Assembly: GCA_030834895.1 (NCBI GenBank)
Contig: JAUQXA010000014.1
Location: forward strand, 1 to 64,000
Source of the DNA: Anaerolineales bacterium
Lineage (GTDB): Bacteria > Chloroflexota > Anaerolineae > Anaerolineales > Villigracilaceae
Length of the DNA: 64,000 bases
Direction: 5' to 3'
Made by a program: the position numbers and the translations under genes. Positions 442-24,617 of this stretch are shown here, piece by piece. The stretch's first letter is position 1; each line of letters begins with the position of its first letter. The notes beneath the pieces are model-generated. The model was not told the origin of the DNA. It ran no database searches and saw only the letters and a list, made by a program, of their open reading frames with translations.

Positions 442-1263
442 ATGAAAATCGAAGTCAAAGACCTCCGTTTTACCTACCCCACCGGACTGGAAGCCTTGCG
501 CGGCATTTCGCTTGTCATCGAGGCGGGCGAACAGGTTGCCATCGTCGGGCAGAACGGCGCGGGCAAGACCACCCTCGTGCGTCACTTCAACGGGCTGTTG
601 CAACCAACCATCGGGTCGGTGATGATCGGCGATTGGGACACGAAAGAACATTCGGTGGCAAAACTCGCTTCGCGGGTCGGCTACGTCTTCCAAAATCCCG
701 ATGAGCAATTGTTTTCAAGAGACGTGGAAACCGAGGTCAGGTTTGGTCCACACAACCTGGGATATCCAAAAGAAAAAATAGACGAACTGGTCAGGCGCGC
801 GCTGGCTCTCACCGAGTTGAGCAACCAGACCGAGACCAATCCCTACGACCTTTCGCCCACCTGGCGCAAGATGGTCGCGCTGGCGTCGGTTATCGCGATG
901 GATACGCCCATCGTTATTTTTGACGAACCCACCACGGGACAGGATGCGGTCAATGTGGCGCGCATCGCGCATGTTATCGCGGAGTTGCGACAGGAAGGTA
1001 AGACCGTTATCACCATCACACATGATATTGATTTCTGTGCGGAGAACTTCGAGCGCGTGATCGCCCTTTCCAACGGGCAGGTTTTACTCGACGGTGCGGC
1101 AGCGGATGTGCTGGATCAGGCGGAAATTCTCGCGCAGACCTACGTTGATCCGCCGCAACTGACAAGGCTGGGCAAAAGGTTGGGGTTCAAGGAAACAGTC
1201 TGTAATCAGGATGAGTTTCTAAATTCATTGAAAAAATCCATTGACGCATCCACATCCAAGTGA
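442..1263 (+). CDS. ABC transporter ATPase with degenerate signature motif (ECF A-type)
   Basis: A 273-residue ABC ATPase. Walker A is GQNGAGKTT (about residues 37-45), the Q-loop lies in VFQNPDEQLFSRDV, Walker B is IVIFDEPTTGQD and the H-loop is ITITHDIDF. The PDEQLF stretch after the Q-loop is typical of ECF/CbiO ATPases. The signature that should read LSGGQ is LSPTWRKM, clear in the DNA at about 853-873, so this subunit probably contributes a defective signature to one of the two ATP sites of a heterodimer with the preceding gene product. It follows that gene after a palindrome. Its 3' end contains the promoter of the lysC leader. The substrate is unknown. Confidence 0.88.
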   Translation: MKIEVKDLRFTYPTGLEALRGISLVIEAGEQVAIVGQNGAGKTTLVRHFNGLLQPTIGSVMIGDWDTKEHSVAKLASRVGYVFQNPDEQLFSRDVETEVRFGPHNLGYPKEKIDELVRRALALTELSNQTETNPYDLSPTWRKMVALASVIAMDTPIVIFDEPTTGQDAVNVARIAHVIAELRQEGKTVITITHDIDFCAENFERVIALSNGQVLLDGAAADVLDQAEILAQTYVDPPQLTRLGKRLGFKETVCNQDEFLNSLKKSIDASTSK

Positions 1264-1269
1264 TATAAC
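1241..1269 (+). promoter_or_regulatory. Sigma-70-like promoter of the lysC leader
   Basis: TTGACG at 1241-1246 and TATAAC at 1264-1269 are separated by 17 bp, with TG at 1261-1262 giving an extended -10 element. It overlaps the last codons of the ABC gene. The expected transcript start (about 1276-1280) is essentially at the first ATG of the leader peptide. Confidence 0.65.
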
Positions 1270-1279
1270 TGCGCCCAAT

Positions 1280-1360
1280 ATGAAATCGGCTTGCTTCTCC
1301 ATGACCATGACCACTACCACCTCAGGTTCACACCGTGAGGAATTTGTGCTTGGTCGATAG
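1280..1360 (+). CDS. Threonine-rich leader peptide (attenuator)
   Basis: A 26-codon reading frame from ATG 1280 to TAG 1358-1360, or 19 codons if the ATG at 1301 is used. Codons 9 and 11-14 (1304-1321) are Thr, giving Thr-Met-Thr-Thr-Thr-Thr, followed by Ser-Gly-Ser. It lies between a good promoter and an intrinsic terminator in front of aspartate kinase, as thrL does in enterobacteria. Ribosome stalling on the Thr codons would report low threonyl-tRNA. No Shine-Dalgarno site is visible, so translation would be leaderless or nearly so. The role is inferred from the architecture. Confidence 0.7.
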   Translation: MKSACFSMTMTTTTSGSHREEFVLGR

Positions 1361-1420
1361 CAGCCGAAGAGAACGGCGCACAAACACAGGACGCCTCACG
1401 GAAACGTGGGGCGTTTTTGT
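1320..1420 (+). promoter_or_regulatory. Transcription attenuator: pause, antiterminator and terminator hairpins
   Basis: Three mutually exclusive hairpins can be drawn. Strand 1 (1320-1327) pairs with strand 2 (1332-1340, one bulged G). Strand 2 (CCGTGAGG, 1333-1340) pairs perfectly over 8 bp with strand 3 (CCTCACGG, 1394-1401), forming the antiterminator. Strand 3 (1391-1400) pairs with strand 4 (1405-1414) as a 10-bp stem with one G-U pair, a GAAA loop and a T-rich tail (1414-1422), an intrinsic terminator. A ribosome stalled on the Thr codons would cover strand 1 and free strand 2, favouring the antiterminator and so lysC expression. Confidence 0.75.
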
Positions 1421-1436
1421 TTACCTAAAAGAATTT

Positions 1437-1505
1437 ACCACAGAGAGCACAGAGCACACGGAGACTCTTAAAAAAATCTTTGTAAACTCCGTGTCTTCTG
1501 TGATG
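1437..1505. repeat. Imperfect inverted repeat of the 'CACAGAG...CTCCGTG' type
   Basis: A purine-rich left half (1437-1463, CACAGAG units ending CACGGAG) faces CTCCGTGTCTTCTGTG (1487-1502), with the innermost 7 bp perfectly complementary. It fills the space between the attenuator terminator and the lysC ribosome site. No function can be read from it. Confidence 0.5.
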
Positions 1506-1532
1506 AGAACCGTAACCAAAGGAGAAGATATT

Positions 1533-2981
1533 ATGAAAAACAAAACGCTCGTGATGAAATTTGGAGGAACATCCGTCGGGTCAGTGGATGCGTTGAAAAG
1601 CGCGACACAGATCATTCGGGGTGCGAAAAGGGATTGGGATAGAGTCGTCGTGGTGACATCCGCCATGTCGGGTGTGACCAACCTGCTGTTGGATTCTGCT
1701 TCACTCGCCGTCAAATCTGTAGGGGCGACTCGCGAGTCGCCCCTACAGGAACATTTACAGAAAGCCGAATCCACGCTGAAAGAGAAACACTTCGCCGCCA
1801 CTGATGAGTTGATTCAAAACGTGGAACTTCGCGAAAGAACCAAGCAGGAAATTAGCGATCTCATTTTTATTCTGGTCGATTTGTGCAAGGCGATTGCTGT
1901 TCTCGGCGAAGCCAGTCCGCGGGCGATGGATACGGTGGCGTCTCTGGGAGAACGCATGAGCGTACGCTTGCTGGCAGCGGTAGTGGACGATGCAGGAATC
2001 AAAGCCAAAGCCGTGCTGTCCACCGAGTTTGTCGTCACCAACAACCATTTCCAAAACGCACACCCCGATTTCAAAGCCACAACCGAAAAGACCCGCACCC
2101 TGCTCAATCCTTTGATGGACGAAGGTATTATCCCGATTACCACTGGATTTATCGGCGCGACGCCCGAAGGAACGATCACCACATTGGGACGCGGCGGCAG
2201 TGACTACTCCGCTGCCATCATCGGCGCTGTCCTCCCCGCAGACGATGTCTGGATCTGGACGGATGTGGATGGAGTGATGACCACCGATCCGCGCATTGTG
2301 CCAGCAGCACGGACTCTGCCTGAAATCAATTACAGTGAAATTGCCGAACTTGCCTATTACGGCGCAAAAGTATTGCACCCGAAGACCATCCGTCCCGTGC
2401 TGGATGCGGGCATCGGCTTGCGGATTTGCAACACGTTCAATCCAAGTCACCCAGGCACCAGATTGATTGCCAACGGCAAGAGCAACGGCAAGATGAACGG
2501 AAAAGTCATCAAAGCCGTGACCGCCATCCGCAAACAGAGATTGGTTACCATCGAAGGGCGCGGTATGCTGGGAGTCCCTGGTGTAGCGGCGCGCGCGTTT
2601 GCGGCGGTGGCCTCCACAGGCACGAGCGTACCGTTGATCACACAGGCCTCTTCGGAGCAATCCATTTGTTTTGCCGTGCCGTCTGAGCACGCTGCCTCGA
2701 TTGTCGCAGCGCTCGAAAAGACCTTCGCCAGCGAAATTGCAGATGACGACATCGACCGCGTCTGGTCGACGGATGATATTTCCATCATCACCGTTGTCGG
2801 CGCGGGAATGCGTCACACGCTGGGTGTTTCGGGCAGGATATTCAGTCAACTTGGAAATAACGGCGTCAACGTCCTTGCCATCGCGCAGGGTTCTTCGGAA
2901 GTATCCATCAGTCTCGTGGTCGAAGCGGCGGACACGGAGAACGGCGTGAAGGCGTTGCATGAGTTAATAGTAGACAAGTAA
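1533..2981 (+). CDS. lysC: Aspartate kinase with tandem ACT domains
   Basis: A 482-residue monofunctional aspartokinase: phosphorylates L-aspartate, the first step towards Lys, Thr and Met. KFGGTS (residues 9-14) is the family start signature; the kinase core reaches about residue 320 and includes GRGGSDYSAA; two ACT domains follow (from about 335 and 415) and would bind the feedback amino acid. The start at 1533 has AAAGGAG 9-13 bases upstream; an upstream in-frame start at 1335 would run through the attenuator and is rejected. Residues 62-72 are encoded by a perfect 32-bp palindrome inserted in frame. It is followed 36 bp later by asd. The upstream attenuator suggests regulation by threonine supply. 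Confidence 0.95.
   Translation: MKNKTLVMKFGGTSVGSVDALKSATQIIRGAKRDWDRVVVVTSAMSGVTNLLLDSASLAVKSVGATRESPLQEHLQKAESTLKEKHFAATDELIQNVELRERTKQEISDLIFILVDLCKAIAVLGEASPRAMDTVASLGERMSVRLLAAVVDDAGIKAKAVLSTEFVVTNNHFQNAHPDFKATTEKTRTLLNPLMDEGIIPITTGFIGATPEGTITTLGRGGSDYSAAIIGAVLPADDVWIWTDVDGVMTTDPRIVPAARTLPEINYSEIAELAYYGAKVLHPKTIRPVLDAGIGLRICNTFNPSHPGTRLIANGKSNGKMNGKVIKAVTAIRKQRLVTIEGRGMLGVPGVAARAFAAVASTGTSVPLITQASSEQSICFAVPSEHAASIVAALEKTFASEIADDDIDRVWSTDDISIITVVGAGMRHTLGVSGRIFSQLGNNGVNVLAIAQGSSEVSISLVVEAADTENGVKALHELIVDK
1717..1748. repeat. Perfect 32-bp palindrome in frame inside lysC
   Basis: The two 16-bp halves are exactly complementary, with GTAGGGGCG and CGCCCCTAC at the ends as in the copies at 404-430 and 33225-33298. 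Its length keeps the lysC frame open and encodes roughly Ser-Val-Gly-Ala-Thr-Arg-Glu-Ser-Pro-Leu-Gln in a variable region of aspartokinases. Confidence 0.9.
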
Positions 2982-3017: not shown

Positions 3018-4073
3018 ATGAATCAAATTCCCGTAGCTATTCTCGGCGCGACAGGTTCCGTCGGTCAGCGATTTATCTCGTTGCTGGATAATCATCCATG
3101 GTTCAAGGTGGTGGCGCTTGCCGCATCAGACCGTTCCGTCGGACAGCCCTACTCCAAAGCCGCACGCTGGGTGTTGGATGATCCCATGCCCGCTTATGCC
3201 CGCGATATGGTTGTTGTCCCCGCCAACACCGATGCGGTGCAGGCGAAGATCGTCTTTTCGGCGCTGCACACGGAAATTGCCAATGAACTCGAACCCGCGT
3301 TTGCAAAGGCGGGCGCGGCAGTCTGCTCGAATGCGTCATCGTATCGGCGTGGTGAAGATGTGCCATTGCTGCTGCCCGAAATCAACGCAGAGCATATTCA
3401 ACTGGTCAAACATCAACGCAAGAACAAAGGTTGGAGCGGATGTATCGTCACGAATCCCAACTGCACAAGCACGGGACTCACGATTGCCCTCAAAGCATTG
3501 GACGAAACCTTCGGTGTGAAGAAAGTCTTCATGGTCTCACTTCAGGCGCTTTCGGGCGCGGGCTATCCTGGAGTCCCTTCGCTGGACATCATGGACAATA
3601 TCATCCCCAACGTCGGCAATGGCGGCGAAGAAGAGAAGGTGGAATGGGAACCGCGCAAAATGCTTGGCAGGTTCAATGACGGCAAAATTGATATGGCAGA
3701 CATCAAATTCAGCGCCCACACGAATCGCGTGGCGGTGATCGACGGTCATACCGTGTGCGCAAGCGTGGCATTGGACAAACCCGTCGAACCCGAAGTTGCG
3801 ATTCAAGCGTTGCGTGACTACGCGGCAAAGCCGTCCGCGAGAAACCTGCCATCGACGCCGCAACCAGTCATTGAGGTCAAAGATGAGGCGGATCGCCCAC
3901 AGCCCAGACTTGACCGCAATACAGGCAAAGGTATGACGACGGTAGTCGGTCGCGTGAGGAAAGATCCAATCCTCGATTTGAAATTCGTTGTGCTTTCCCA
4001 TAACACGATTCGCGGCGCGGCAGGCGCATCCATTTACAATGCGGAACTGCTGGTGAACGAAAATCTTTTGTAG
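3018..4073 (+). CDS. asd: Aspartate-semialdehyde dehydrogenase
   Basis: A 351-residue NADP-dependent enzyme converting aspartyl phosphate to aspartate semialdehyde, directly after the kinase reaction of the preceding gene. The Rossmann motif GATGSVGQ is at residues 10-17, SNASS at 104-108, and the catalytic cysteine is C149 in NPNCTST. The SNASS/NPNC pattern and the length match the archaeal/fungal-type Asd branch rather than the enterobacterial one. The start is supported by AAAGGAG 7 bases before ATG. It lies 36 bp after lysC with no terminator between, so the two are probably co-transcribed. Confidence 0.95.
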   Translation: MNQIPVAILGATGSVGQRFISLLDNHPWFKVVALAASDRSVGQPYSKAARWVLDDPMPAYARDMVVVPANTDAVQAKIVFSALHTEIANELEPAFAKAGAAVCSNASSYRRGEDVPLLLPEINAEHIQLVKHQRKNKGWSGCIVTNPNCTSTGLTIALKALDETFGVKKVFMVSLQALSGAGYPGVPSLDIMDNIIPNVGNGGEEEKVEWEPRKMLGRFNDGKIDMADIKFSAHTNRVAVIDGHTVCASVALDKPVEPEVAIQALRDYAAKPSARNLPSTPQPVIEVKDEADRPQPRLDRNTGKGMTTVVGRVRKDPILDLKFVVLSHNTIRGAAGASIYNAELLVNENLL

Positions 4074-4151: not shown

Positions 4152-4328
4152 CTCTTATCCAGAGAAGCTGAGGGACCGACCCTTTGAAGCTTCGGCAACC
4201 AAACCATTACATGAGTTCAGGTGCCAAATTCGGCAAATAGGAATGACATTCGTCATTCGTATCTGGAAGATGAGAGGACGGTATAGACGTATACCTCTTC
4301 TTGTACTTTCAGAAGAGGTTACTTTTTT
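4152..4328 (+). promoter_or_regulatory. SAM-I (S-box) riboswitch with intrinsic terminator
   Basis: The S-box core is plain: CTTATCCAGAGAAGC, GAGGGACCGACCC, GAAGCTTCGGCAACC and AGGTGCCAAATTC. P1 is CTCTTATC (4152-4159) with GATGAGAG (4269-4276, one G-U pair); a GAATGAC/GTCATTC hairpin follows the core. The expression platform is a 9-bp terminator stem (4293-4301 with 4311-4319) and a T run (4322-4327). GAGAGG near 4272-4277 can instead pair with CCTCTT at 4294-4299, an antiterminator that SAM-stabilised P1 would prevent. SAM is therefore expected to switch the methionine genes off. This fills most of the 334-bp gap before metY. Confidence 0.93.
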
Positions 4329-24523: not shown

Positions 24524-24617
24524 CGGGAGTGGATGGGAGACGAACCCACCGCGGCTCGCAACGCGACCCGCCACTGGTGTTGAAGACCAGGAAGCCCACC
24601 GGGACCTAACCACTCCC
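24524..24617 (-). tRNA. selC: Selenocysteine tRNA, anticodon UCA
   Basis: The minus strand folds as an unusually long tRNA (94 nt): 8-bp acceptor stem (GGGAGTGG with CCACTCCC), anticodon stem CTGGT/ACCAG with loop CTTCAAC so that positions 34-36 are TCA, a 9-bp extended variable arm (GCGGGTCGC with GCGAGCCGC, one mismatch) and a T arm with loop TTCGTCT. The 8-bp acceptor, giant variable arm and UGA-reading anticodon are the marks of tRNA-Sec. CCA is not encoded. A candidate promoter is TTGCAA-17-TATCCT (24648-24653 and 24625-24630, minus strand), with the -10 about 7 bases before the 5' end. It implies SelA, SelB and SelD elsewhere in the genome. Confidence 0.9.

Follow-up and report, generated by a model that had tools for sequence, protein, structure and literature searches.

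A putative threonine-codon attenuator upstream of lysC-asd in an Anaerolineales genome

The DNA analysed here, referred to as the window, covers the initial 64 kb of contig C57 (JAUQXA010000014.1) of an Anaerolineales bacterium with a genome of 5.65 Mb in 73 contigs. Directly upstream of its aspartate kinase gene, lysC, lies a leader element that is very probably, judging from its sequence, a ribosome-mediated transcription attenuator of the trp/thr type, which would control lysC-asd by reading the charging of tRNA-Thr. This reading is based on a promoter, a leader open reading frame (ORF), a tract of threonine codons, three mutually exclusive helices, an intrinsic terminator, conservation and covariation (Table 1), and the target fits, as lysC-asd feeds threonine synthesis. 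The original prediction had described the promoter, the threonine-rich frame, the nested strands 1:2, 2:3 and 3:4 and the terminator, and all of these were present when their coordinates were re-read. The findings suggest that these bacteria would sense a shortage of threonine, and perhaps of methionine, by means of a stalled ribosome, as in the threonine operon of E. coli but at a different gene.

Table 1. Coordinates of the putative attenuator and adjoining features in the window (nt, nucleotides; SD, Shine-Dalgarno sequence)
Feature	Position	Strand	Details
Promoter TTGACG-17-TATAAC	1241..1269	+	TTGACG 1241-1246, 17-nt spacer, TATAAC 1264-1269; similar promoters before 70 distinct leaders
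Leader peptide ORF, predicted product MKSACFSMTMTTTTSGSHREEFVLGR, then stop	1280..1360	+	26 codons; ATG 1280, stop TAG 1358-1360; ATG 10 nt past the -10 box
Regulatory codon tract Met-Thr-Met-Thr-Thr-Thr-Thr	1301..1321	+	Read from sequence; conserved codon by codon
1:2 (protector) hairpin, CCTCAGGT with ACC-G-TGAGG	1320..1340	+	From folding; strand 1 = 1320-1327, strand 2 = 1332-1340
2:3 antiterminator	1333..1401	+	1333-1340 exactly complementary to 1394-1401; strand 3 = 1391-1401
3:4 intrinsic terminator, ACGCCTCACG-GAAA-CGTGGGGCGT then TTTTTGTTT	1391..1422	+	Strand 4 = 1405-1414; T tract 1414-1422
Dispersed inverted repeat, CCACAGAG...ACACGGAG / CTCCGTGTCTTCTGTG	1434..1509	+	Between terminator and lysC; partial copies in five other contigs
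lysC, aspartate kinase without homoserine dehydrogenase domain	1533..2981	+	AA_kinase and ACT domains only; SD AGGAG 1520-1524
asd, aspartate-semialdehyde dehydrogenase (TIGR00978)	3018..4073	+	36 nt after lysC

Leader peptide and alternative helices

In the proposed mechanism, a ribosome supplied with ample threonine would reach the stop codon at 1358 and cover the end of strand 2 and its extension, whereupon 3:4 would form and transcription would halt before lysC. When threonine is short, the ribosome would wait at the threonine codons at 1310-1321 with its leading edge covering strand 1, so that 2 would pair with 3, no terminator would form and lysC-asd would be transcribed. If the leader were not translated at all, 1:2 and 3:4 would form and transcription would end.

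Five threonine codons lie among the six codons at 1304-1321. A lack of conservation of these codons had been set beforehand as a refuting result, and they were found to be kept in relatives with the frame retained: the last codon of the tract encodes threonine in 38/40 distinct tracts, the preceding codon in 34/40 and the one before that in 33/40. Heterozygosity within the tract, at codons -3 to -1, was 0.05-0.10 at position 1 and 0.41-0.70 at position 3; as the first position is near-constant while the third varies, the reading frame of the tract has been kept. The last codon, which is shared with strand 1, is nearly fixed. The leader thus holds a short ORF, predicted to be translated, in which threonine codons form a run and the frame is conserved. 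Threonine codon usage in the tracts of 70 distinct leaders was ACC 190, ACT 110, ACA 17 and ACG 15.

The same 70 leaders possess a TTGACN promoter followed by an ATG at 5-13 nt from the -10 box (no other distances being allowed by the search pattern), most often at 8, 10 or 11 nt. For boxes resembling TATAAC the pattern picked a hexamer two bases downstream, and a distance of 8 there therefore means 10. Given the usual distance from the -10 box at which transcription starts, the 5' untranslated region would measure approximately 0-4 nt. The leader ORF would therefore start at, or within a few nucleotides of, the expected start of the transcript, and would be translated with little or no 5' leader. 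Predictions of leaderless genes are given in PMC3160421 for 4 of 12 Chloroflexi genomes, the mean being 4.7%.

The whole leader (1280-1428) was found to fold into 1:2 and 3:4 at -55.6 kcal/mol (z -4.48), with none of 200 shuffled sequences as low. RNA from past the last threonine codon to the terminator loop folds as 2:3, at -26.1 against a shuffle mean of -16.6 and again with 0/200 as low. In this genome the antiterminator has additional pairing, with 1343-1349 complementary to 1378-1384 and an inner hairpin formed by 1363-1366 and 1374-1377. An intrinsic terminator is situated before the first gene. The fold test was extended to 25 leaders, of which three lacking a standard terminator (L064, L066, L068) were omitted. 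In the remaining 22, the antiterminator energy lay at or below the 5% level in nine (L009, L014, L017, L059, L067, L100, L110, L112 and L128), with 0/200 shuffles as low in each of L009, L014 and L017, and arm pairing pooled over all 22 exceeded that of shuffles (Wilcoxon p 2.4e-6).

Covariation, conservation and distribution

For covariation analysis, 49 of 53 distinct f1-type leaders were aligned (alignment A1), with L106, L108, L109 and L112 dropped as they align poorly. Standard pairs occupied 88.6% of alignment cells in 1:2, 93.6% in the main 2:3 helix and 99.6% in 3:4, the last figure arising partly from the choice of rows. Covariation scores and counts of double-change cells were, in each of the three helices, above those of 500/500 column shuffles (which leave the relatedness of the rows in place), and slid versions of the helices paired less. 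The complementarity of 1333-1340 and 1394-1401, the absence of which from relatives would also have refuted the original prediction, was likewise found to be conserved in relatives and to covary. The base common to strands 2, 3 and 4 (columns 24/108/127) is T/A/T in 31 of the 49 rows, C/G/C in 10, T/G/C in 4 and another combination in 4, while for the base common to strands 1, 2 and 3 (columns 10/26/106) 41 rows have T/A/T and 4 have C/G/C. The LysC tree implies 7, 6 and 7 changes for columns 24/108/127, and the switch between T/A/T and C/G/C has therefore recurred. For the leader type of the window, helices 1:2, 2:3 and 3:4 were accordingly found to exclude one another and to covary; for other families the evidence is mostly in pooled form only.

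A search with LysC gave matches at E <= 0.001 in 66/81 related genomes, some of them weak, and the upstream stretches of 62 loci were read. Regions with at least 150 nt upstream of lysC were scored as positive (two shorter ones being omitted) if, besides a terminator, they held a short ORF with three or more threonine codons in seven. Within the same family, 42/45 lysC upstream regions were positive; at four or more threonine codons the count was 37/45, the next amino acid being histidine with 6. Among the three misses, L048 shows peptide and terminator by eye, and L152 shares the peptide of L086, the terminator of which was aligned. The lower threshold also yields other amino acids (histidine in 16/45 in f1), and for this reason the threshold of four and the alignment were relied on. 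Across 198 lysC upstream regions, a set that holds some genomes twice, a terminator that follows a short ORF having at least 4/7 codons for one amino acid was found for threonine in 85, which is more than chance; the next were alanine in 9, histidine in 7, and leucine, glutamine and glycine in 4 each.

A covariance model (R1) built from the 49 leaders matched 43/49 genomes of the genus at E <= 0.001. At E < 1e-10 it gave 42 matches, of which 40, on comparison by eye, lie directly 5' of lysC, while a further one is at the end of a contig and another elsewhere; as R1 was built from many of the same loci, it maps copies and is no independent discovery. Weaker matches were read at 10 loci, where three (L233, L234, L236) proved to be a leader with asparagine and threonine codons, discussed below, and seven resemble unrelated terminators. 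A separate observation is L229 (G035:C202:7476-7582, R1 E 5e-11), an isolated copy of leader and terminator without lysC in the stretch read, which by its sequence resembles a lysC leader that has partly decayed or been displaced.

Outside the window's family, a threonine tract was present in 12/21 regions from other families of the order, mostly in different RNA sequences. For other orders of the class the count was 3/11 at 3/7 threonine codons and 1/11 at 4/7, where glycine gives 2, and is therefore no higher than noise. In 60 further picked loci of the class, at least 4/7 threonine codons were found in 6 and arginine in 3, with family f103 positive in 3/3, and tracts of threonine and methionine codons were seen at loci of families f24 and f127. 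Picked lysC regions from other classes gave 1/33 at 3/7, a weak case, and 0/33 at 4/7. Judged from sequence in this sample, most members of the window's family have the device, its occurrence across the class is scattered, and beyond the class it was hardly encountered. One locus from another class, L196 (G311), has a weak ORF containing threonine, methionine and isoleucine codons (MNATCAATTRIGSTGIMTTIMITKRVPVGARVSA) and a terminator before a distant lysC.

Beyond the f1 type, both the terminator and the antiterminator have different sequences. Leaders of other families, picked by hand, have diverged in RNA sequence and retain the threonine tract, the alternative fold and the terminator (22/25 of this set with a standard terminator, three of the 22 being from the window's family). 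Several RNA architectures that retain codon tract and logic would form a natural series for the study of attenuator evolution.

Alternative readings and the methionine codons

A number of results weigh against the attenuator reading. The rows of alignment A1 were picked by a GGGGCGTT-like terminator end together with a threonine tract, and the constancy of strand 4 is therefore partly by construction. The inner hairpin of 2:3 is paired in only 65.4% of the alignment cells, few pairs vary on both sides (two in 1:2 and two in 3:4), and 8/49 rows have neither the T/A/T nor the C/G/C triple. Shuffles reached the observed number of pairs changed on both sides in 247, 18 and 18 of 500 for 1:2, 2:3 and 3:4, so that 1:2 fails, and the number of further pair types in 46, 156 and 500 of 500, so that none passes. 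A sign test on independent branches, having at most three pairs on supported branches, was underpowered. In the 2:3 fold of the window 9/13 arm bases are paired, which 29.5% of shuffles reach and which is hence unremarkable; among the 22 leaders tested, the antiterminator energy missed the 5% level in 13 and the count of paired arm bases attained it in just 4, and in L017 the full leader favours 2:3 over 3:4 by energy. Mechanical scans listed no promoter and no plus-strand terminator at the leader; the former was missed because the scan rule requires a final T in the -10 box, which here ends in C, and the latter, at a guess, since its stem extends into the T tract. Many families of the class were without such a leader at the loci sampled. 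Neither hom (ORFs in 11 loci, and ORFs with terminators in two longer stretches) nor thrC (leader scan of 10 loci) has one directly before the gene, although an ORF with three threonine codons lies near a terminator well upstream of thrC at L246.

Other explanations of the element were also weighed. The ORF of the upstream ECF ATPase ends at 1263, approximately 130 nt before the terminator, which could then merely end a transporter operon and leave the leader ORF as a chance frame. A separate promoter is, however, situated between that ORF and the terminator, the threonine frame is kept and the strands covary, and leader and lysC stay linked where another gene lies upstream, only 4/38 hand-picked loci having an ECF ATPase homologue there. 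A terminator belonging to the upstream gene was rejected on account of this variation, and that reading is considered most improbable. In many bacteria amino acid genes are usually regulated by riboswitches and T-boxes, and the lysine riboswitch and the T-box control lysC or thr genes by premature termination. Against such an element with an incidental ORF, gathering and permissive scans found no Rfam family at cut-off within 1241-1533, neither of these two kinds gave an Rfam match in the window or the 20 loci searched, and the conserved part is a codon tract with drifting third positions; this account likewise has very little probability. Translation of the leader might instead control the translation of lysC or the stability of its mRNA through reinitiation and not through termination, and a role for leader peptides in reinitiation is proposed in PMC4833913. 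The distances proposed there are short, whereas 172 nt and a terminator separate the leader stop codon from lysC, and such control is held to be highly unlikely. The inverted repeat within this interval is no part of the attenuator device; in several relatives the leader stop codon lies merely 77-110 nt from lysC.

A different question is whether the attenuator senses threonine and methionine together, both being end products of the homoserine branch. According to the original prediction only threonine codons are used; the threonine tract is indeed conserved, but methionine codons are conserved inside it as well. Threonine and methionine both derive from homoserine, and a mixed tract would therefore be sensible for lysC-asd. 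In 70 distinct leaders methionine made up 118/209 of the non-threonine residues within the tract against 21/1273 outside it, although one family supplies most of these leaders and the tract was cut from one residue before the first threonine, which favours methionine. With the tract taken from first to last threonine, 24 representative leaders (not fully independent, and with L300 scored on the wrong ORF) gave 21/47 against 46/698, at least one methionine being present in 13/24 and none in the tract as cut in 11/24. Isoleucine is rare by both counts (2/209 and 4/47). Codon -3 is methionine in 19/40 and threonine in 19/40 tracts, mixed tracts occur in distant families (TGTMMTTT, TMTGMMTT and TTFTMTMTTGMGMMT), and an S-adenosylmethionine (SAM) riboswitch after asd makes methionine control of the neighbourhood plausible. 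On the other hand, in the window's family the methionine codons lie 3-6 codons before the last threonine codon, upstream of the position that best masks strand 1; a ribosome stalled there would leave strand 1 mostly free, and the effect of methionine would therefore be weaker. A shortage of methionine would also lower initiation, and the tandem ATGACC repeats could stem from slippage. Dual sensing is therefore given somewhat less than an even chance. With the threonine/methionine tracts, along with the asparagine/threonine tracts described below, the idea that mixed codons allow several amino acids to be sensed becomes directly testable.

The threonine-reading attenuator proposed for the window resembles thrL and the Rfam family Thr_leader (RF00506) in its threonine-rich leader peptide, alternative hairpins, intrinsic terminator and downstream gene of the aspartate family. 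Thr_leader sits before thrA of the thr operon, and thrL carries threonine and isoleucine codons. By contrast, the window leader precedes lysC-asd, has methionine but hardly isoleucine in its tract and has its start codon at the promoter. Scoring 16.1 bits (E 1.4) against a gathering threshold of 55, it is no member of Thr_leader. Outside Proteobacteria, leader peptides with attenuator-like structures are likewise described for actinobacterial trp, ilvB, leuS, leuA and cys genes (PMC1262725); that paper reports that in Actinobacteria no conserved RNA structures were seen upstream of operons for threonine, lysine or methionine, and it refers to threonine gene attenuators of other species. The original prediction had also raised the possibility of an undescribed attenuator class. 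The literature matches listed include neither a threonine leader at lysC nor any study of attenuators in Chloroflexota, by which absence from print is not established; PMC9413887 names Chloroflexi once, and a term search of PMC2965389 gave zero hits. If the attenuator reading is true, classical attenuation of the aspartate pathway would reach a phylum without a described case among those matches, at a different gene, lysC-asd, and with a seemingly leaderless leader ORF.

A companion leader and the lysC neighbourhood

The second leader, with asparagine and threonine codons, was found via the three weak R1 matches mentioned above, and the weak matches G004:C35 and G023:C9 also lie just before the same gene. 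This leader is situated 5' of a class I/II aminotransferase-like gene (PF00155, with the best NCBIfam matches far under cut-offs), its ATG closely preceded by a promoter and its ORF followed by a terminator. A core resembling DTNNTNRTTRT followed by GRWYLS was found by pattern in 19/25 loci of the gene (L323-L347), and with a terminator present at least 4/8 codons encode threonine in 15/25 and asparagine in 8/25. The copy in the genome of the window, L338 (G000:C38:36808-38109), reads MFSPIIVDNNTNRTTRTHSVTGRWYLPDEQQQTQSS from an inner ATG. It may tentatively be proposed, as the less probable outcome, that Anaerolineae run an aspartate-family regulon of leaderless attenuators with peptides encoding the end products below the controlled step, namely threonine and methionine at lysC-asd, and asparagine and threonine (with aspartate) at an aminotransferase-like gene that maybe supplies aspartate.

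The description of lysC as monofunctional was borne out by its domains. The protein lies above the cut-off for TIGR00657 and below that for TIGR00656 (385 of 402 bits). Its nearest relatives among the named matches listed, which may omit records very near the source genome, are Chloroflexi/Anaerolineales metagenome assemblies (top match LaPlata_bin-4228, 88%), in agreement with the Chloroflexota origin considered probable before. A gene for asd lies within 300 nt of lysC in 45/69 named loci having at least 1.3 kb downstream (80 named loci in all), and hom and thrC of this genome are on other contigs than lysC-asd. The SAM riboswitch (RF00162, 78.6 bits) is situated at 4152-4276, 3' of asd, and is followed by genes for an O-acetylhomoserine sulfhydrylase and a MetA-type homoserine acetyltransferase. 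As it precedes methionine genes adjoining lysC-asd, two different RNA controls would stand side by side.

Within lysC, a perfect 32-nt palindrome was identified in frame at window positions 1717-1748, accompanying approximately 8 extra residues. Among 13 LysC proteins compared, this insert is present only in that of the window and in L010, and similar copies occur on contig C15. Elsewhere in the window, a selenocysteine tRNA (RF01852, 67.1 bits) was identified at 24525-24617 on the minus strand.

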